NCBI RefSeq assembly: GCF_006517175.1
Contig: NZ_CP041186.1
Location: 3,375,074-3,439,073, forward strand
Source: Persicimonas caeni
GTDB lineage: Bacteria > Myxococcota_A > Bradymonadia > Bradymonadales > Bradymonadaceae
Direction of reading: 5' to 3'
Length of the DNA stretch: 64,000 nucleotides
Below are positions 22,083 through 30,334 of the stretch, piece by piece. Position numbers and translations under genes: made by a program. The notes beneath the pieces are model-generated. The model made no database searches and was not told the DNA's origin. It worked only from the letters and a program-made list of their open reading frames with translations. The first letter of the stretch is position 1. The number at the start of each line of letters is the position of its first letter.

Positions 22083-23126
22083 TTAGCGAACACGCTTCCA
22101 ATTCGCCTTGGGAAGCGTCTTGGAGATGGGAGGCCGCGCGTTTCCGAGCACGTAGATCGCCCGACGGTTCTTCTCGTTTTTGGTCTCGTCGGGCGTGTTC
22201 ACTGCCAAGACGGACTCGCCGAAGCCCTGGTAGTAGATCGGGATGTCGAGACCCTTCTTCTCGAACCACTTGGCGATCGCGCGCGCTCGGGCGGTGCTCA
22301 GCTTGTAGTTGTCCGACTTCGAACCGACTGTGTCGGTGTAGCCGGCGATATAAAGCTGCATTTGCAGGCCTTTGTCGCGGTGTTTTTTCATCGCCTCGCG
22401 AATATTCGCCAGCGTATCCTCGAGCTTAGGCTCCTCCGAGTTGTCCCAACTCGCCTTGCCGAAGTTGAAGATCACCTCTTTGTGCGGAATCTCGACCCAG
22501 AACGGCTCGAGCAACACACTTCGCCAGAAGCCATCGACGTCGTAGGCCTTGAGGCGAATGCCGCCGACATCTTCTTTGGCGGGCCACTTGACCATGAAGG
22601 TGCCTTTCTTGCCGCCCAAGCTTTGGGTGCCTTCGTAGAGTTTGTTGCCGTTGGAGTCGAAGATCTCGGTCTCGACGCGGTCCATGGGGCGGTTGGCGCG
22701 GACCGGAATCTCGCCTTTGCCGATGCGCGCCTTGTTGGGATCGACCGACAACTCGAGCTCGGCGACCAGCGTTGCCTCGATGTCGAGGCTGGTTTTGACG
22801 GTCTCCCCGGCGCTGCCCTTGGCTTCGATGGTCACCTCGTACTTGTGGGTGCCGGCAGGCTGTTTGATGGGAAACTCTTTGGTCGCGCCGGCGCTCAACG
22901 AGCCGATCTGCTTGGTGAACGACTTGCCGTCGGAGCGCTTGAAGGTCACCGTACCGCTCGAGATGTTCCCGGTGGCCTGCAGCACCAAGCTCGGGTAGCC
23001 TTGGCCTACCTGAACCTTCTTATTGACCTTGTACTGAAAGCCGGCCTGAGCGAAGGCAGACGCAGACAAAACCAGCACGGTGAAAAAGGCGACTGTTGCA
23101 GCCAAGAGTGGCTTCGAGCGATGCAT
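22083..23126 (-). CDS. Exported OmpA C-terminal-like (peptidoglycan-associated) protein
   Basis: 347 residues from the ATG at 23126 with GGAG eight bases before it. The signal peptide ends SAFAQA. The N-terminal two thirds are beta-rich with tandem Ig-like segments (SSGTVTFKRSDGKSFTKQ, KYEVTIEAKGSAGETV). The C-terminal part (~215-330) has an OmpA-like core: MQLYIAGYTDTVGS, NYKLSTARARAIAKWF and NRRAIYVLG. It probably binds peptidoglycan in the periplasm. It is next to an L,D-transpeptidase on the same strand, which supports a cell-wall role; the two are 155 bases apart. Confidence 0.82.
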   Translation of the reverse strand: MHRSKPLLAATVAFFTVLVLSASAFAQAGFQYKVNKKVQVGQGYPSLVLQATGNISSGTVTFKRSDGKSFTKQIGSLSAGATKEFPIKQPAGTHKYEVTIEAKGSAGETVKTSLDIEATLVAELELSVDPNKARIGKGEIPVRANRPMDRVETEIFDSNGNKLYEGTQSLGGKKGTFMVKWPAKEDVGGIRLKAYDVDGFWRSVLLEPFWVEIPHKEVIFNFGKASWDNSEEPKLEDTLANIREAMKKHRDKGLQMQLYIAGYTDTVGSKSDNYKLSTARARAIAKWFEKKGLDIPIYYQGFGESVLAVNTPDETKNEKNRRAIYVLGNARPPISKTLPKANWKRVR

Positions 23127-23224
23127 AGTGGGCTCCAGAGGATCTTTGTCTTGTCCTGGCTCGGTACTTATACAACGAATTGAGCGCAAGATCATTCAAG
23201 TCGTCACAAACAGAGACAAACGCC

Positions 23225-24130
23225 ATGTCCGCAAGTTCCGTCACTGACGCCGCTACGATCATCATCCTGCGTGAGGCCGCCAGGGGCTTCGAGGTCTTTA
23301 TGGTGCGGCGTCACTCCAAGAGTCAGTTCATGGCGAATCGGTATGTCTACCCGGGTGGCAAGCTCGACGCGGCCGACAGCACCGAGGTGGCCGCGAGGCA
23401 TGTCGAGGGACTGACACCGAAACAAGCGCGCGAGCGGCTGGCCGAAGAGGTCGACCCGTCGACGGCGCTGGGGCTTTTCTTGGCGGGCATCCGTGAGACC
23501 TTCGAGGAGGCAGGCATCTTATTGGCGCGGCGCGCCGGTGAAGACGACCTCATCGACCTGACCAGCGACGAGGAGGTCGCCGAGAGGTTTCGCGTGTACC
23601 GCAAGCAGCTCATGGAGGGGGACATCTCGTTGAGCGAGGTCGCCGAGCGCGAGAGTCTGGTGTTCCCGCTCGACCGGCTGGGCTATTTCGCCCACTGGAT
23701 CACGCCCTACGTCGAGCCGCGGCGGTTCGACGCGCGCTTCTTTGTGGCGATCGCCCCCGACAGCCAGCGGCCGTTGCATGACAAGCGCGAGACGACGGCG
23801 TCGGCGTGGATCCGCCCCGCCGACGCCGTCGCACAGAACCAGGCCGGCGAGTTTATGCTCGCCCCGCCCACACTGCGCACGCTGCAGCAGCTGGCCGAAT
23901 TCGAGTCGGCCGAGGCCGCCTTCGAGTGGGCGCTCGACCACGACCCGCCGACGATCCTGCCGCATATGGAGCAGCGCGACGAGCACATCTGGCTCTTCTT
24001 GCCGGGCGACGACGAGTTTCCGGCCGACGATGCAGAGTATGCGATGGCCGAGCCAGTAGACGACGGGGTGACGCGGATGGTCGCCGAGAATGTGGGCCTG
24101 TGGCGGGTAGTGCCCCAAAACCACCCCTAA
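23225..24130 (+). CDS. NUDIX hydrolase, NUDT19-like (large insertion in the Nudix box)
   Basis: 301 residues from the ATG at 23225. The Nudix box is split: YVYPGGKLDAAD near residue 40 and, about 45 residues later, AGIRETFEEAGILLA, which together give the catalytic Glu cluster. This arrangement, and the tail that begins with HWITPYVEPRRFDARFFVA, is that of the NUDT19 (RP2p) group, hydrolysing CoA or other diphosphate-linked compounds. The substrate is inferred. The gene is divergent from the OmpA-like gene and is followed immediately by the first REP palindrome. Confidence 0.85.
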   Translation: MSASSVTDAATIIILREAARGFEVFMVRRHSKSQFMANRYVYPGGKLDAADSTEVAARHVEGLTPKQARERLAEEVDPSTALGLFLAGIRETFEEAGILLARRAGEDDLIDLTSDEEVAERFRVYRKQLMEGDISLSEVAERESLVFPLDRLGYFAHWITPYVEPRRFDARFFVAIAPDSQRPLHDKRETTASAWIRPADAVAQNQAGEFMLAPPTLRTLQQLAEFESAEAAFEWALDHDPPTILPHMEQRDEHIWLFLPGDDEFPADDAEYAMAEPVDDGVTRMVAENVGLWRVVPQNHP

Positions 24131-24151
24131 CACGGTGTCAGACACCGTGTT
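24129..24151 (+). repeat. REP palindrome copy 1 (overlaps the NUDIX stop codon)
   Basis: A perfect 23-bp dyad with 11-base arms around a central A (core ACACGGTGTCAGACACC). It begins at the TAA of the NUDIX gene. The next ~36 bases, running into TTTGAGCACGATCTC, are shared with copy 4. Confidence 0.85.
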
Positions 24152-24244
24152 GTCCAAGTTTCATGCGCATTTGAGCACGATCTCATCTCTCAGCACGGCC
24201 TTCGTAAGATGATGTCGGAACACCGCGCTTTCCGGTCCACCTCT

Positions 24245-24267
24245 AACACGGTGTCAGACACCATGTT
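24245..24267 (+). repeat. REP palindrome copy 2
   Basis: Same 23-bp unit as copy 1 with one change (G to A) in the right arm; centre base A on the plus strand. Confidence 0.85.
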
Positions 24268-24277
24268 CTGTGCCCCT

Positions 24278-24300
24278 AACACGGTGTCAGACACCATGTT
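24278..24300 (+). repeat. REP palindrome copy 3
   Basis: Identical to copy 2 and 33 bp after it (start to start). This is the same 33-bp spacing as the pair inside the luxE-like gene. Confidence 0.85.
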
Positions 24301-24354
24301 CGGCCAAAAAATGACGATACGTGGCACCGTTGCCACCTGACGCGTCCTCCAGAG

Positions 24355-24810
24355 TCACGCCTCCAATGCCCGCTGCTCGTCAGCCGCGAAGACGGCGGCA
24401 CTGATCGACAAACTAAAGAGCAGCGTGAACCAGAGAATCGAAGCGATTCCCATCCACCCACCTCCGCTGTTTATCCCGACGACGGCAAAACTGGCTGTAA
24501 AATAGATAGTGTTGTCGACCGCAGAGAGCCTCCAGAGCTTGGCCTTAGAGACTGACGCCTCTCGCCCTAGCGCGCGCCGAACGTACTGCAGCAGCAGCCA
24601 GAAGCCGAAGAGGGTGACCGAGATGAAGCCGAGTGAGATGACCAGGTGGACGAGCTCGGTCGCGCCGCGGCCGGCGACCAAGCTGCTCACGACTCCCATC
24701 GTGACTGCCCCAGCTATCCAGAGCCCGTAAAGCGCCGGCAGAGTTCCCAAGACGCCCACGATGGCAAAGAAGATGGCGATTGGTCGATCATTGAACTTGA
24801 ATTCCGTCAT
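24355..24810 (-). CDS. Small integral membrane protein
   Basis: 151 residues from the ATG at 24810, chosen for its near-perfect ribosome binding site (GGAGGT). Four hydrophobic segments lie at about residues 12-32, 50-72, 95-115 and 118-140. No family is recognised. The gene sits inside the REP-rich stretch, with copies 2-3 just beyond its 3' end and copy 4 upstream. Confidence 0.65.
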   Translation of the reverse strand: MTEFKFNDRPIAIFFAIVGVLGTLPALYGLWIAGAVTMGVVSSLVAGRGATELVHLVISLGFISVTLFGFWLLLQYVRRALGREASVSKAKLWRLSAVDNTIYFTASFAVVGINSGGGWMGIASILWFTLLFSLSISAAVFAADEQRALEA

Positions 24811-25221
24811 GGGTGACCTCCTCGAGCAGTAGCGCAGCCACTTGCCGCGCCGTCGCCCACTACGAAAGAGCAAGTCTTGCGCCAGCACTGATCGCCTCGT
24901 GCATAGACGCTGAGAGGGGGGAGAGTGGGGAAGTGTCAACCAAGTTGACGGTTAGGTGTCCAGCGGGTGGGCAAATTGCTGAGAACTGGGTGTAAGGGAA
25001 CGGATGTGGAAACAGAAATCCCCCCCCGATCTCGCCCCACCCCCAACACGGTGTCAGACACCATGTTGTCCAGCTCTCATGCGCCTTTGAGCGCGATCTC
25101 GCGAACCCGATCAGCCTGCTGCCCCACAAGAAAAATCACCTAATCACGCAACGATTCGGGCAATTCTGCCGAAAACCGTATTGAGGGCTGTCGATGAACC
25201 TTCACCCACGGAGACTGGCAG
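24811..25221. other. Intergenic region upstream of the transposase
   Basis: It holds REP copy 4 and, at 25146-25186, a 41-bp segment that reappears near 40612 (ACGCAACGATT...TGCCGAAAACCGTA). No gene is supported; short open frames here lack binding sites and homology. Confidence 0.55.
25045..25067 (+). repeat. REP palindrome copy 4 (nearest upstream of the transposase)
   Basis: Same unit as copies 2-3, centre base A. The flank up to about 25103 matches the flank of copy 1, so the mobile unit is longer than the palindrome alone. Confidence 0.85.
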
Positions 25222-26199
25222 ATGGGACACCCGCTCAGGCAGCAAGAGAAAGACGCGATCTACGAGATTGTGAACCGCACCCAGCACCAATTCCACGGGC
25301 TCTCGCCCGACGCCGACGAGGTCGTCAACAAGATCATCCTGGGGCTTCTGGCCAAATATGCCTGGATCTACGGGGTCGAGATCTTTGCGTTTTGCTTCAT
25401 GTCCAACCACTTCCACATCCTGGCGCGCTGTAAATCGCTGCAACTTCACCTGTTCATGCGCGACTTCCAGAGCCAGCTCGCCCGCAAAATGAACGCGCTT
25501 CGCGGCCGCACAGGCACCTTCTGGGAGCGCCGTTACACCGCCACCAAGGTGCTCGACGACGACGCGATGATCGATCGGCTTCGCTATACCTTGTGTAATC
25601 CCTGTGAGTCGGACCTGGTGAGCCATCCGAAGAAATGGCCGGGGCTGTGCTCCTGGCAGATCCACGACAACGGTGAGCCACTGGTGGGCGAGGTGGTCGA
25701 CCGTGAGACGTACTGGCGCGAGAAGCGAAAGAAGAAGAACGAGGACAAGACCGAGGCAGAACTCATCGAGATGGCCACGGTGCGCTACCCGCTGGAGCTG
25801 GCCAAGCTGCCGAAGTGGGAGGACATGGACGACGAGGCCTACCACCAGAAGATGCGAGAAGAGTGCCACAAGCACGCCGGCGAGCTGGCCAAGAAGCGCT
25901 GTCGACCGTGCCTGGGAAGAAAGAAGGTGCTCGCTCAAAAGTGGTCGAGCCGCCCCAGAAACCCGAAGAAGGCGCCGCGCCCGCTGTGCCACGGCGGTGA
26001 CCTCCAGCAGCGCGAGGAGTATCGCCAGCAGCGCTGGGACGTGACCGACGACTACCGAAAAGCAGTCGGAAAGTGGCGCAAAGGCAAGACCCCGGTCAAC
26101 CGCATCGAATTCCCCGAAGGCACGATCCCGCCCGGCCATCAGTTTTGCTACGGTCGCAAAGGTGAGTTCAACATGACCGTGCCGCAACTGCGGTCCTGA
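25222..26199 (+). CDS. REP-associated tyrosine transposase (RAYT, Y1/HUH family)
   Basis: 325 residues with GGAG nine bases before the ATG. The HUH nuclease motif is NHFHIL (in CFMSNHFHILARC, near residue 65); the following helix carries FMRDFQSQLARKMN, and GTFWERRY and RLRYTLCNPCESDLV are family landmarks. Unusually, the nucleophile position needs checking, since the expected Tyr of the Y1 helix is not obvious in the segment after the HUH motif. A ~170-residue Lys/Arg-rich C-terminal tail extends the usual RAYT length. Surrounded by seven REP-like palindromes, it is the likely agent of their spread. Confidence 0.85.
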   Translation: MGHPLRQQEKDAIYEIVNRTQHQFHGLSPDADEVVNKIILGLLAKYAWIYGVEIFAFCFMSNHFHILARCKSLQLHLFMRDFQSQLARKMNALRGRTGTFWERRYTATKVLDDDAMIDRLRYTLCNPCESDLVSHPKKWPGLCSWQIHDNGEPLVGEVVDRETYWREKRKKKNEDKTEAELIEMATVRYPLELAKLPKWEDMDDEAYHQKMREECHKHAGELAKKRCRPCLGRKKVLAQKWSSRPRNPKKAPRPLCHGGDLQQREEYRQQRWDVTDDYRKAVGKWRKGKTPVNRIEFPEGTIPPGHQFCYGRKGEFNMTVPQLRS

Positions 26200-26491
26200 G
26201 ACGACGTCTCGTCGTCCATCCCAGAAGTCATAGCCATCGTACCCCGCCTGCTCTCGAAACACGTGTCGTGAAGCTGCCGAAGTATGCTCACAACCTCGCG
26301 CTCCACCACAGATTTCTGCTCAGGAGCCGGTCGACCGCCGTTCGACTCGAGCCCAGCGTCTATCGAGGCGAAGGTCGTCGTCAAACTGACGAATTTAGGG
26401 ACGTCAACGACGGCCAAACCCCGCTGAGAGCCGCACCAGAACTACCTCACATGGTGTCTGACACCATCTCGCCCATCATTTTTCAGGGGGG
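26200..26491. other. Intergenic region between transposase and luxC-like genes
   Basis: Apart from REP copy 5 it shows nothing recognisable. The transposase and the minus-strand luxC-like gene converge here; no clear terminator apart from the palindrome itself. Confidence 0.5.
26451..26467 (-). repeat. REP palindrome copy 5 (core only, opposite orientation)
   Basis: ATGGTGTCTGACACCAT, a 17-bp perfect core with centre T on the plus strand, i.e. reversed relative to copies 1-4. The outer arms do not match the 23-bp unit. It lies at the 3' side of the transposase and could act as a terminator for both flanking genes. Confidence 0.75.
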
Positions 26492-27616
26492 TCAGCACGT
26501 CACGATGCGCAACCATCCGAGAACATTCGGCTGCCCGTCGTGCAACCAGCCGGCAGGCGGCGCCTGCAGCTCGCCTGGCCGACATATGCGGGTGACACCA
26601 AGCTGGGCCAACGCTTCGGCCCACTCGTCGCGTACCGTCGCCGGTGCGGCGAGTGCGGCGCCCTGCAGTTGCCCGCGCGGTACAACTACGGCCTGCGGCA
26701 GCTCCGCGAGCGACTCGACGCGATGTAAGGTGACCACGTTCGCGGCCACGCGCTCGCCGTTGAACGGCCCGTCCACACGCTGCGCCCAACCGATTGAATC
26801 GCCCCAAATCTCCGAGGTGAACTCGGCGACGCCCCTAGCTTGCACCCGTGCCGCCAACTCTCCGGCCCCAAACCCACCTGCGCCCAGGCGCTTCTCTTCG
26901 GCGGTAATCGCGTCGCCCAACAACTCTCCGAACACTTCTAGGCGCTCCTCGGAGCCGCAAAACATCACTCCGCGCGCTGAAAAACAGCCCGTCTGGTTCC
27001 ACATGAGCGCGTCTGTGGCAACCGCTGCCGCGGTCTCACCCAACTCGACCTCTGAGCCGTCGACAACGACCGCAAAGCTGACCCGATGCCCGTAGCCAAT
27101 AACCCGCGCGCCGCGTACCTGACGGCGCACCTCAGCGACGGTTTGGTCGCTGCCGCTCACAACAACAACCTCGGCAGCTCTCCACTCATCGTCGGACACC
27201 AACAGCCGCAGTGGCGCGACGTCATCGGGCCAGATACTGGCCACGTGCTCGGCGAAGTGCCGACCGCGGCTCGACGGGCGAATGCCCTGCGGCACGCCCA
27301 AACTCGCACCAAATAAGACAGGCGTCAGTCCTGCGCCCGGCAGCGCCGGCCATATATGCACGATGTTCGCGGGCCGCTCTAGCTTGAGTCGTCTTCCAGC
27401 CGCATCCTCGACAAAATCGTCGAGCGCAGCGACCCCGCCAAATCCTGCCAGCTCGGCTCGAATGGCCGCCTCGAGCGCATCGACGTCCCACGTCTGGCGA
27501 TGTAGCTCGAACCCGGCGCGCACCATCGGTTCGGGCCACCCGTCGGCTACCACCGCTTCGACCGTCCGGTCGAATTCACCGAAGAGTCTGTCGATGAACT
27601 GTCGGAGATCATTCAT
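26492..27616 (-). CDS. luxC: LuxC-like acyl-CoA/acyl-protein reductase
   Basis: 374 residues from the ATG at 27616, which overlaps the upstream luxE-like stop by eight bases, so translation is coupled. The aldehyde-dehydrogenase-like fold includes LPGAGLTPVLFGASLGVP, WNQTGCFSARG with the likely catalytic Cys, and WGDSIGWAQRVDGP. In luminous bacteria LuxC, with LuxE, reduces fatty acids to long-chain aldehydes using NADPH. Here there are no luxA/luxB genes, so the aldehyde serves something else. The C-terminus is shorter and looser than in Vibrio LuxC. The symbol denotes family, not bioluminescence. Confidence 0.8.
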   Translation of the reverse strand: MNDLRQFIDRLFGEFDRTVEAVVADGWPEPMVRAGFELHRQTWDVDALEAAIRAELAGFGGVAALDDFVEDAAGRRLKLERPANIVHIWPALPGAGLTPVLFGASLGVPQGIRPSSRGRHFAEHVASIWPDDVAPLRLLVSDDEWRAAEVVVVSGSDQTVAEVRRQVRGARVIGYGHRVSFAVVVDGSEVELGETAAAVATDALMWNQTGCFSARGVMFCGSEERLEVFGELLGDAITAEEKRLGAGGFGAGELAARVQARGVAEFTSEIWGDSIGWAQRVDGPFNGERVAANVVTLHRVESLAELPQAVVVPRGQLQGAALAAPATVRDEWAEALAQLGVTRICRPGELQAPPAGWLHDGQPNVLGWLRIVTC

Positions 27617-28766
27617 TCGCAGAAACGATTTCTTCAATGGTGAGGCTGCAGCCTCGAAGCTGAGCCTGCGGGGCGCGGCCGTGCAACAGAAAGCCGCCGC
27701 CTTCGACGAGTACGCCTAGATCGCTCGTCTGCACGACGATGACGCTCTCCGTATTGGCGAGGTCGTACCAGCGAATCAGGCCCTCGGTACGTGGCTCTTC
27801 AATGGGCTCGAAGCTCAGCGGGTCGACGATCTCGACACGCGCCCATGGGGGGGTTTGGAGCACGCCAACACGGTGTCTGACACCATGATTTGCGCCTCCA
27901 ACACGGTGTCTGACACCGTGTTGCAGATTTTTGAAAAGGTCGTCGGAGTAAGCTTGGCTCGACAATTCCGTCATGCTGTACTCGCTCACACAGCGCACTT
28001 GCGGAACGCCCAGGCGCGTCTCGAACATCTCGTAGAGCTCGTCGCGCGAAATCTCGCGCGTCTTCCCCTTGAATCCGCCCGTCTCCATGACGCGCGAACC
28101 ATCCGCGAGCTGCCACGCCTTGTCGGTCGCGTCGAAAAACTCGGCGAACCCGAACGCCGTGCCCAACAACATCGTCACCACGCCGTCTCGTTCGGCCTCG
28201 TCGAGCGCCTCGACCAGCGCATCGAACGCCATCTCCAAGCTGCCGTCGTCCGTTTTGTGCACGAAATAGCCGCTCTGGGCGTCGCCGAACCGCTCCAGAA
28301 GCTCGTCGAGCATGAATGACAAACTGCTGTCGGGCAGATCCGAGCCCGACGGCGCCACTACGAGCATCCGAATCTCGTCGGCATCGGGCACACAAAACCG
28401 CTCGAACGGCCCGAACAGGGACGCCTTGTAGACCTCCAGCGTCCCAAAATGATGCTCGCCACGCTCACCCAGGGTTGTCCCGCTGGTGCGAAATGTGCGC
28501 ACCGGCTCGTCGGCCGTCGTCAGCCTGACGTGCTTGAAGACGTCGGTCGGCACCGCCGGGATATCCCGGTAGCTTCGAATTGAACCCGGCTCGACACCAC
28601 GCTTTTCGCAAAAGCTTCGGTACGGGATATTGCCTTCGAATTGAGTTCGGAAAATCTCCCGGGCGAGCTGCGTAAACGTCTCGTCGGACCACTCGAGCGG
28701 ACCATCGATGGGGTTCCAAACATCAATGGCGTCGATGATTTGGTATTTTGCTTCGTTGTGGCTCAT
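27609..28766 (-). CDS. luxE: LuxE-like acyl-protein synthetase with in-frame REP insertion
   Basis: 385 residues. Family landmarks are RTSGTTLGERGEHHFG near residue 95, VCSEYSMTELSSQAY near 270, WARVEIVDPLSFEPI, and RAPQAQLRGCSLTIEE near the end. LuxE activates fatty acids with ATP and passes the acyl group to an enzyme Cys and on to LuxC. Between SSQAYSDD and PPWARVEI the protein carries LQHGVRHRVGGANHGVRHRVGV: this is the translation of two REP palindromes 33 bp apart, read in frame, in what is normally a short loop. The gene overlaps luxC. Confidence 0.8.
   Translation of the reverse strand: MSHNEAKYQIIDAIDVWNPIDGPLEWSDETFTQLAREIFRTQFEGNIPYRSFCEKRGVEPGSIRSYRDIPAVPTDVFKHVRLTTADEPVRTFRTSGTTLGERGEHHFGTLEVYKASLFGPFERFCVPDADEIRMLVVAPSGSDLPDSSLSFMLDELLERFGDAQSGYFVHKTDDGSLEMAFDALVEALDEAERDGVVTMLLGTAFGFAEFFDATDKAWQLADGSRVMETGGFKGKTREISRDELYEMFETRLGVPQVRCVSEYSMTELSSQAYSDDLFKNLQHGVRHRVGGANHGVRHRVGVLQTPPWARVEIVDPLSFEPIEEPRTEGLIRWYDLANTESVIVVQTSDLGVLVEGGGFLLHGRAPQAQLRGCSLTIEEIVSANE
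27867..27922 (-). repeat. REP palindrome copies 6 and 7 inside the luxE-like gene
   Basis: Copies at 27867-27889 and 27900-27922, 33 bp apart, both with centre T on the plus strand. Copy 7 is a perfect 23-bp dyad. Both lie in frame in the coding sequence, and each gives the peptide HGVRHRV. Confidence 0.85.
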
Positions 28767-28781
28767 AAGATTGATTCAAGT

Positions 28782-28796
28782 GTCTCGGCCCGAGAC
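28782..28796. terminator. Short dyad between rlmD and the luxE-like gene
   Basis: GTCTCGGCCCGAGAC, seven-base arms around one C, in the 47-bp gap. It is a possible weak terminator or operator; no U tract is clear. Confidence 0.35.
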
Positions 28797-28813
28797 GCCA
28801 TGACTTGCGACGT

Positions 28814-30334
28814 CTAGGCTTTCTCCAAGAGGGCCACGTTCTCCACGTGATACGTGTGCGGGAACATGTCGACCGGCTGGATCGTCTCGATCGTGTAACC
28901 AAACTCGCACAGCTCGGCCAGGTCGCGGGCGAGCGCCTTCGGATTGCACGACACGTAGACGAGCCGCGGCGCGTCGATCTGCTTGAGTTGCTCGCGCGCC
29001 TCAGGCAACAAACCCGCGCGCGGCGGATCTACCACCACGATATCAACGGCTCCCGCGGCCTTCTTGAAATCGTCCTGGCTCAACACGTCACCGACGTCGC
29101 CGGCAAAGAAGGTCACGTTGTCGATGCCGTTTTGCCCGGCGTTTTGCCGCGCGTTGTCGACCGCGTCCGGCTGCAGCTCGATGCCCACCACATGCTTGGC
29201 GTACGGGGCCATGCACAGCCCGATGGTTCCGGTGCCACAGTACAGATCGAGCACTCGCGCCTTGCCGCGCTCAGCATCTCGCAGTCCCGTCTTCTCGAGG
29301 ACCTGTGCATAGAGCACCTCGGCCTGCAGCGTGTTCGGCTGGAAGAAGGCGCGCGGGTGAATCTCGAATGACAGCACCTGGTCATCCGGCAAATGCATCT
29401 GCTCGACGAGCACGGGGCTTCCGTACAGGTGATGCTCGATGAAGCGCGTCGGCTCGCCGCGCACGGCGCGGTGCTGCGTCCAGTACAGCGAGCTGACCGA
29501 CTCTCCCATCTGCTCGCACGCAAAGACGACGAAGCCGCAAAACATCTGGGCGATATCTGCAGCGGCCATCTCTTTTCCGTCGCATAACGCCGTCTCGTCG
29601 TGGGTCGTCGTCAGCTCGATCATACGCTCGCCGGTTCGCTTTCCCTCGCGAATGGTCAGCGTGCGCAAAAAGCCCTCGTCCTTGTTGCCCTGATACGGCG
29701 CGAGGCCGCGTTCGATGGCCCACTGTCGAACCTTGGGCAGAAACTCGGAGACGAATTCCGACTGCAGATAGCACTCGTCGAGGTTCAAGACCTCGTAGCG
29801 ATAGCCCTTCGGATACAGCCCCAGCGCGAACTCGCGGTCGGCGGTGTCCCCGAAGCTAAACTCCATCTTGTTTCGGTAGTACCACGGCTCGTCTTGGCCG
29901 ATGATGGGCATGACGTGGCCGGGGTCGACACCGCGCCCCTGCATCAACCCCTTGATGATGCGCTCTTTGTTGGCCAATTGGTGGCGGTACGACATCAACT
30001 GCAAGGTGCAACCGCCGCACCCCTCCCCGCGAACCTCACGTCGGCCGAAATGCTTGCAGCGCGGCTCGATGCGCATCGGCGACGGCTCCAGAATCTCGTC
30101 GATCCGCGCGGTGATCGTGCGCTTTTTACGCCGTTCGACCGACACACGCACCCGGTCGCCGGGCACGGCCTTGCGCACCTGCATGGTGTAGTCCTTCGAC
30201 TCCTCTTGAGGGCCGACGACACACGGAAACGCAGCCGTGCCGAGCCCTTTGAGCGACAGACCGTCGATCTCGAGTTCGAAGGTCTCGCCGTGGCGCGGGC
30301 TATGGGGCAAATGGGGGCGTTGCTGAGTCATCAT
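28814..30334 (-). CDS. rlmD: 23S rRNA (uracil-1939-C5)-methyltransferase, RlmD/RumA type
   Basis: 506 residues. An N-terminal TRAM domain (~18-75) precedes the iron-sulfur cysteines in CKHFGRREVRGEGCGGC. The methyltransferase domain has DLYCGTGTIGL, VVDPPRAGL and the catalytic VSCNPKALARDL. It matches the RlmD/RumA group that makes m5U in 23S rRNA; assignment to U1939 or a paralogous site is inference. The ATG directly follows the recF stop codon without a gap, suggesting co-transcription and coupling. Confidence 0.9.
   Translation of the reverse strand: MMTQQRPHLPHSPRHGETFELEIDGLSLKGLGTAAFPCVVGPQEESKDYTMQVRKAVPGDRVRVSVERRKKRTITARIDEILEPSPMRIEPRCKHFGRREVRGEGCGGCTLQLMSYRHQLANKERIIKGLMQGRGVDPGHVMPIIGQDEPWYYRNKMEFSFGDTADREFALGLYPKGYRYEVLNLDECYLQSEFVSEFLPKVRQWAIERGLAPYQGNKDEGFLRTLTIREGKRTGERMIELTTTHDETALCDGKEMAAADIAQMFCGFVVFACEQMGESVSSLYWTQHRAVRGEPTRFIEHHLYGSPVLVEQMHLPDDQVLSFEIHPRAFFQPNTLQAEVLYAQVLEKTGLRDAERGKARVLDLYCGTGTIGLCMAPYAKHVVGIELQPDAVDNARQNAGQNGIDNVTFFAGDVGDVLSQDDFKKAAGAVDIVVVDPPRAGLLPEAREQLKQIDAPRLVYVSCNPKALARDLAELCEFGYTIETIQPVDMFPHTYHVENVALLEKA

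Follow-up and report, generated by a model that had tools for sequence, protein, structure and literature searches.

The window analysed here, a 64,000-nucleotide stretch of the single 8,047,206-base contig (8.05 Mb) of Persicimonas caeni, carries on its minus strand an ORF for a LuxE-like acyl-protein synthetase followed by one for a LuxC-like acyl-CoA reductase, and one copy of a Y1 (HUH) transposase lies just downstream of this pair (Table 1). Inside the intact luxE-like gene, at 27865-27924, there are two palindromes with the core GGTGTCTGACACC, in the same orientation and 33 bp apart. Compared over 23 nt (27865-27887 and 27898-27920), the two copies are 96% alike, with a start-to-start spacing of 33 and both cores on the plus strand. 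The minus-strand ORF is open through both copies and reads ...SSQAYSDDLFKNLQHGVRHRVGGANHGVRHRVGVLQTPPWARVEI..., encoding HGVRHRV twice. The first-pass annotation had claimed both this arrangement, two repeat copies 33 bp apart that keep the frame of an acyl-protein synthetase gene, and the repeated peptide, and the ORF translation bears it out.

Table 1. Coordinates in the window of the genes, transposase element and palindromes discussed in the text
Feature	Position	Strand	Details
Single palindrome core, few bases past the stop of ORF 23180-24130	24134..24146	-	
Palindrome doublet (33-bp spacing), outside the coding class	24250..24295	-	cores 24250-24262, 24283-24295
Transposase element 5' end: AACAGAAA..., then inverted palindrome	25010..25062	-	core 25050-25062; by-eye comparison of 17 copies
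Y1 (HUH) transposase, 325 aa	25222..26199	+	PF01797 E 1.8e-8; motifs SNHFHIL, RYTLCNP
Palindrome core 3' of transposase element	26453..26465	+	core scan, flank comparison of copies
LuxC-like acyl-CoA reductase ORF, adjoins luxE	26492..27637	-	PF05893 E 6.5e-24; start uncertain
LuxE-like acyl-protein synthetase gene, 385 aa	27609..28766	-	Pfam LuxE PF04443, E 2e-10
Palindrome copy 1	27865..27887	+	core 27872-27884
Spacer between copies, part of the 33-bp period	27888..27897	.	
Palindrome copy 2	27898..27924	+	core 27905-27917

The LuxE-like protein scores 40.5 bits against Pfam PF04443, above the gathering score of 24.9, and its sequence matches the LuxE of 7xc6 (E 9.2e-16). Its score against the NCBIfam long-chain-fatty-acid--protein ligase LuxE model is 46.6, with a cut-off of 550, and judged by this score the protein is not the luminescence equivalog. 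The assignment of the LuxC-like ORF rests on a Pfam scan covering 26495-27619. The modelled fold of the LuxE-like protein resembles adenylate-forming enzymes (best E 1.6e-10), and the protein keeps every column that is invariant in an alignment of 16 of the 17 family sequences (L016 was left out). The AlphaFold2 model, built with an input of 16 sequences, has a mean pLDDT of 84.8, falling below 50 (very low confidence) at residues 285-297; the repeat-coded residues are 283-301. Folding of the doublet is strong both as DNA (z -6.3) and as RNA, for which a hairpin of -38.2 kcal/mol is predicted (z -5.3). A known RNA family behind the palindromes was considered and rejected, as Rfam returned no match across window positions 23000-30000.

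The LuxE loop in related genomes

LuxE orthologues were obtained from 17 of the 20 other genomes of the family and from the best 80 of 328 loci in GTDB genomes. The resulting set of 96 other loci, which leaves out one partial match (L018), is not made up entirely of distinct loci, since about 11 of the 80 GTDB loci seem to come from genomes already represented by L003-L017. The peptide HGVRHRV is present in 0 of these 96 loci. Loop length was defined as the aligned segment from SQAY to the W of PPW, which could be anchored in 93 of the 96 loci and ranges from 11 to 39 residues among these homologues. It is shorter than here in 92 of them and longer in one (39 residues). The segment comprises 34 residues in P. 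caeni, 26 in the nearest relative (genome G002), whose LuxE is 71% identical, and 17 in the commonest case, giving a net gain of 8 or 17 residues, respectively. At this level of identity, the compared genomes contain no strain-level empty site. Repeats and spacer included, the doublet codes for 18 residues, counted from its opening H to its closing V. The net gain falls short of this, and the alignment implies that some of the former loop was lost or overwritten.

This homologue alignment had been named beforehand as the check on the first-pass proposal, and it agrees with a peptide that is specific to this genome; the variable length among homologues and the low pLDDT likewise agree with its placement in a loop region. 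The proposed size of the insert, about 22 residues, was an overestimate of the net gain. An ancestral insertion is rejected within the reach of the sampled loci, the relatives having no such peptide and mostly shorter loops. As far as these alignments go, the doublet is real, lineage-specific and in frame, and in the structural model it lengthens a flexible loop. Gene order around the pair is kept in G002 (dnaN-recF-RNA methyltransferase-luxE-luxC), where the transposase is absent from the 10 kb compared, so the transposon either arrived next to luxC-luxE in the P. caeni lineage or disappeared from that of G002.

An adaptive role for the peptide, through altered LuxE activity, contact with LuxC or luxE-luxC expression via an RNA hairpin, would be in line with the strong predicted hairpin and with a gene that is intact and retains all its invariant columns. 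We consider such a role highly improbable, because the modelled loop is disordered and varies widely in length among homologues, and because the palindrome family is also found in unrelated proteins; the doublet, moreover, is carried by a single genome.

The palindrome family and its associated Y1 transposase

The core GGTGTCTGACACC is present in 96 exact copies in the genome, and the reversed control in 0. In the 20 other genomes of the family there are 6 copies of the core, spread over 4 genomes. The window contains 7 cores against 0.17 expected, a number reached in 0 of 100 shuffles; exact counting was confined to these 7 and to the 96 found genome-wide. Chance matching as the origin of the cores is rejected by the shuffles and the reversed control, and the same counts support the earlier claim that the inserted peptide derives from a DNA repeat. 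With up to 3 mismatches of 17 allowed, the matches number 221 on the forward and 219 on the reverse strand (control: 4 and 3), with the proviso that one palindromic site can score on both strands. The consensus of the 96 units is a palindrome around CaACACGGTGTCTGACACCGTGTtgG. Neighbouring cores form 18 pairs at distances below 100 nt. Of these pairs 13 are direct, 7 of the 13 having a spacing of 33 or 34 and differing spacers. An exact footprint was sought in other repeats carrying the palindrome, in which the flanks differ and no clean empty copy was seen. Within the window, a probably spurious minus-strand ORF (23519-24157) begins with MDNTVSDTV inside a palindrome, illustrating that the family can seed false gene calls.

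The transposase is present in 17 copies in the genome, at 70-100% identity and with no stops, all of which keep the HUH and Y..NP motifs. By-eye comparison identified AACAGAAA as the 5' end in 15 of the 17 copies, with a variant in 2. On the 5' side the core is exact in 13 copies and degenerate in 4, whereas on the 3' side, within 420 nt, it is exact in 13, degenerate in 2 and not seen in 2. Overall, 32 of the 96 cores adjoin transposase copies, and the link first drawn between the palindrome and a Y1 transposase stands. At E 0.001, Pfam reports Y1_Tnp as the sole domain (PF01797, above cut-off) and no HTH, and searching by sequence returned no solved structure for the protein. The score against the NCBIfam REP_Tyr_transpos (RAYT) model is 53.7 bits, with a cut-off of 80. 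The RAYT membership previously assigned does not extend to a standard single-copy RAYT with GTAG REPs: as judged from its multicopy state, the absence of a GTAG foot from most units and a score below the NCBIfam cut-off, the enzyme is RAYT-like but not a canonical RAYT. Palindrome ends were also sought around the transposases of relatives, where a core-like motif was detected in 1 of 23 loci, at the locus end. Two further Y1 transposases in the P. caeni genome, at 3892761 and 6775230 (41% identity, one with a stop), have other, ggggaac/gttcccc-like ends.

In-frame palindromes in other genes

Cores were classed as coding by a fixed rule together with a hexamer coding model, for which 158 long ORFs served as the training set. 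The second LuxE core and several likely cases, such as 2720937, 7535430 and 2978418, fall just outside the rule. Under this rule, 19 of the 96 cores are in frame in coding DNA and 77 are not classed as coding, so that the LuxE event is not a one-off. None of the 19 is among the 32 cores adjoining transposases. Away from transposase copies, coding cores make up 19 of 64. The corresponding figure for positions drawn at random from those loci is 2192 of 3000, and the family is hence depleted in genes yet far from absent.

These figures bear on another reading, in which the palindrome serves as a chromosomal or regulatory site and evolves where it stands, the transposon being no more than its carrier. 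A dyad-symmetric, highly conserved core, several in-place coding copies and a depleted but persistent presence in coding DNA are compatible with such a site. The idea nonetheless has very little to recommend it, given that there are only 6 cores in 20 related genomes and that copies form clusters, sit at transposon ends and bring clear length gains to several genes (see below).

Most of the coding cores (17 of 19) read xxVSDTx, two read xGVRHxx (LuxE and 2957971) and none reads TRCxTPC. The palindrome is open in five of the six frames, two of which give VSDT, and 17 of 19 in VSDT corresponds to p about 1e-5 if copies are independent, an assumption that fails for doublets and for D/T/S-rich lipoprotein linkers. 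The LuxE doublet thus uses the rare frame. At 2957971 the core keeps only 5 of 8 arm bases, Pfam gives no match, and the occurrence may be due to chance. Counting the second LuxE core, 12 of 20 coding units carry 7 or 8 arm bases. Four coding pairs are spaced 33, 33, 33 and 72, all multiples of three, as against 5 of 14 pairs elsewhere, a feature that is not independent of the frame bias. For annotators, NTVSDTV and HGVRHRV can serve to flag repeat-derived residues.

Five lipoprotein-like ORFs (L068, L069, L071, L074 and L079) carry the palindrome as DTVSDT in D/T/S-rich linkers, where repeat spread and natural coding cannot be told apart. The search for solved structures gave nothing for the helicase-like ORF that carries cores 4958970 and 4959042, and no homologues were found for the GlpB-like ORF around core 7535430. 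In the FGE-sulfatase/propeller ORF (core 1776806), the matches of relatives cover the other domain only, and the palindrome site lies outside them.

Insertion or overwriting

Comparison with relatives revealed a mixed pattern of gene lengths. DNA polymerase II is longer by 18 residues than in the one family relative, and by 15 columns than E. coli Pol II; the antiporter subunit is longer by 16 than in 6 of 6 relatives, and the PbpC-type protein, whose core 2720937 fails the coding criterion, by 12 to 26 than in 13 of 14, being 4 shorter than in one. The RecD-type protein gives conflicting directions, being 1 to 14 residues longer than in 14 of 16 relatives but 17 shorter than in the nearest one and 4 shorter than in one other. 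The mobA product aligns with that of G002 without gaps from query residue 38 onward, with AAHTVSDTVLVIG over VAQRLTPTVAVIG, and differs by 0 to -3 or +1 from 13 other relatives; L139, whose match starts before a stop codon, was left out, and a value of +27 for L140 is an alignment artefact (8 gap columns in all). The pfkB-type gene shows a net difference of 0 against 9 of 12 relatives (-1, +2 and +4 against the rest), with PDMVSDTMLDADL over PKMVPPEWMQADL. Doublets and one single palindrome hence add residues, whereas the two singles in mobA and the pfkB-type gene add none. Both of the latter have the family's full complement of eight arm bases, which makes chance an unlikely source of these two palindromes.

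On this evidence, we assign a probability of about three in four to the LuxE doublet being a mobile palindrome, the end of a 17-copy Y1 transposon, that arrived in this lineage only. In this scheme, the palindrome would be the end sequence of the Y1 (HUH, IS200-like) transposon and itself probably mobile, and its copies would probably have spread through the action of that transposase on single-stranded hairpins. The doublet would have landed in, and partly replaced, a LuxE loop tolerant of length change, and with the frame kept LuxE would have gained a short flexible peptide, presumably neutral, that selection did not remove. The five open frames of the palindrome would make such survival easier.

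Plain insertion does not predict zero net gain in mobA and the pfkB-type gene. These same-length copies reflect either overwriting or insertion with a compensating deletion; they are the oddest result of the analysis, and the wider set in this genome is more interesting than LuxE itself. A second mechanism has accordingly to be weighed, in which palindromes were not inserted; near-matches would instead have been overwritten or converted by copying of other units (through single-strand annealing, gene conversion or template switching), and length would hardly change, if at all. The gapless mobA alignment, the unchanged pfkB-type length, the full set of arm bases in both and a LuxE net gain smaller than the repeats are all in its favour. 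We nevertheless regard it as unlikely, because polymerase II, the antiporter and PbpC show clear net gains and because both clean cases could combine insertion with a compensating deletion, in a history blurred by nearest relatives that are 54-61% identical. A narrower version, in which single palindromes spread by overwriting DNA of equal length, perhaps as single-stranded hairpins annealed at the replication fork, is similarly doubtful. If overwriting were true, a transposon end sequence could rewrite seven enzyme codons without a frameshift, and the preference for the VSDT frame would be a footprint of selection on survivable rewrites. The two same-length cases make the choice between insertion and overwriting testable for REP-like units.

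Relation to known repeat systems

In-frame REPs in genes, RAYT-type (GTAG) families among them, are already known as a kind of event. The passages on intragenic repeats in PMC3733652 (2013) report that in several species ORFs contain REPs of the GTAG and CGTC families, and that many of these lie in genes for DNA synthesis or repair; they also cite Rickettsia RPEs as in-frame palindromes in functional genes. Like the GTAG/CGTC REPs of those passages, the units described here are short palindromes, occurring alone or as dimers and read in frame within many proteins that are unrelated to one another, with a RecD-type helicase and DNA polymerase II among those concerned with DNA synthesis and repair. 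They differ in their core, GGTGTC(T)GACACC, and in their foot, which is GT[AG]G in 4 of 96 units and CGTC in 10 of 96.

As summarized in the part of PMC6006769 dealing with REP families, these usually have one transposase copy and do not move as a unit. The 17 transposase copies found here, with their high identity and shared ends, depart from the canonical REP/RAYT arrangement. Canonical REPs are mostly extragenic, compared with the split here of 77 cores not classed as coding and 19 coding. The element has parallels with the TIR-flanked Y1 transposases (TIRYTs), for which the relevant section of PMC3733652 describes repeats forming dimers and clusters: it shares with TIRYT/TIRtron elements a RAYT-like HUH transposase, terminal inverted repeats, multiple copies and dispersed units including dimers, some ends being degenerate or missing. 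It differs in that none of the 96 units has GGGGWSAS at the foot, and 3 have it within 41 nt. The portion of PMC6006769 on subclasses places TIRYTs in subclass 2.1, which is described with a C-terminal HTH-type domain where Pfam gives only Y1_Tnp here, and gives multicopy subclass 2.3 a median length of 325 aa, equal to that of the present transposase; this likeness is one of length.

In Pseudomonas fluorescens SBW25, the figures given in the pertinent part of PMC3116915 are 14 of 1,067 16-mers overlapping genes, with inverted doublets. The Pseudomonas REPINs and RAYTs share with the present system a Y1 transposase accompanied by dispersed palindromes and doublets, but coding cores are 19 of 96 here, with the reservation that methods differ, and close pairs are mostly direct (13 of 18).

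Compared by description only, Rickettsia palindromic elements are similar in being palindromes in frame inside intact genes, and differ in belonging to an unrelated organism and in the tie to a transposase seen here. The Rickettsia elements are also longer units. A search of open PubMed Central papers, with subscription papers outside its scope, returned no report of this palindrome family or of TIRYT-type repeats inside genes. The repeat family, its host and the link to a multicopy transposase hence appear to be new, adding a repeat family and a lineage in which several enzymes carry transposon-end peptides and relatives are close enough to compare.

A second repeat family

A second repeat family, GAGGGCAAGATGCCC[AC]CGCACCGA, was observed at 2504726-2504790 (L063), with 60 matches across the loci compared, often in tandem or as inverted pairs. 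At L063 an inverted pair is in frame in the pfkB-type gene already described; the gene exceeds 11 of 12 relatives by 27 residues there, and the remaining one by 17. Around 3992562 (L072), a methyltransferase-like ORF contains tandem units, STPREHRCGGILPSDSVSGTA, read in frame, in which the two repeat families are mixed.
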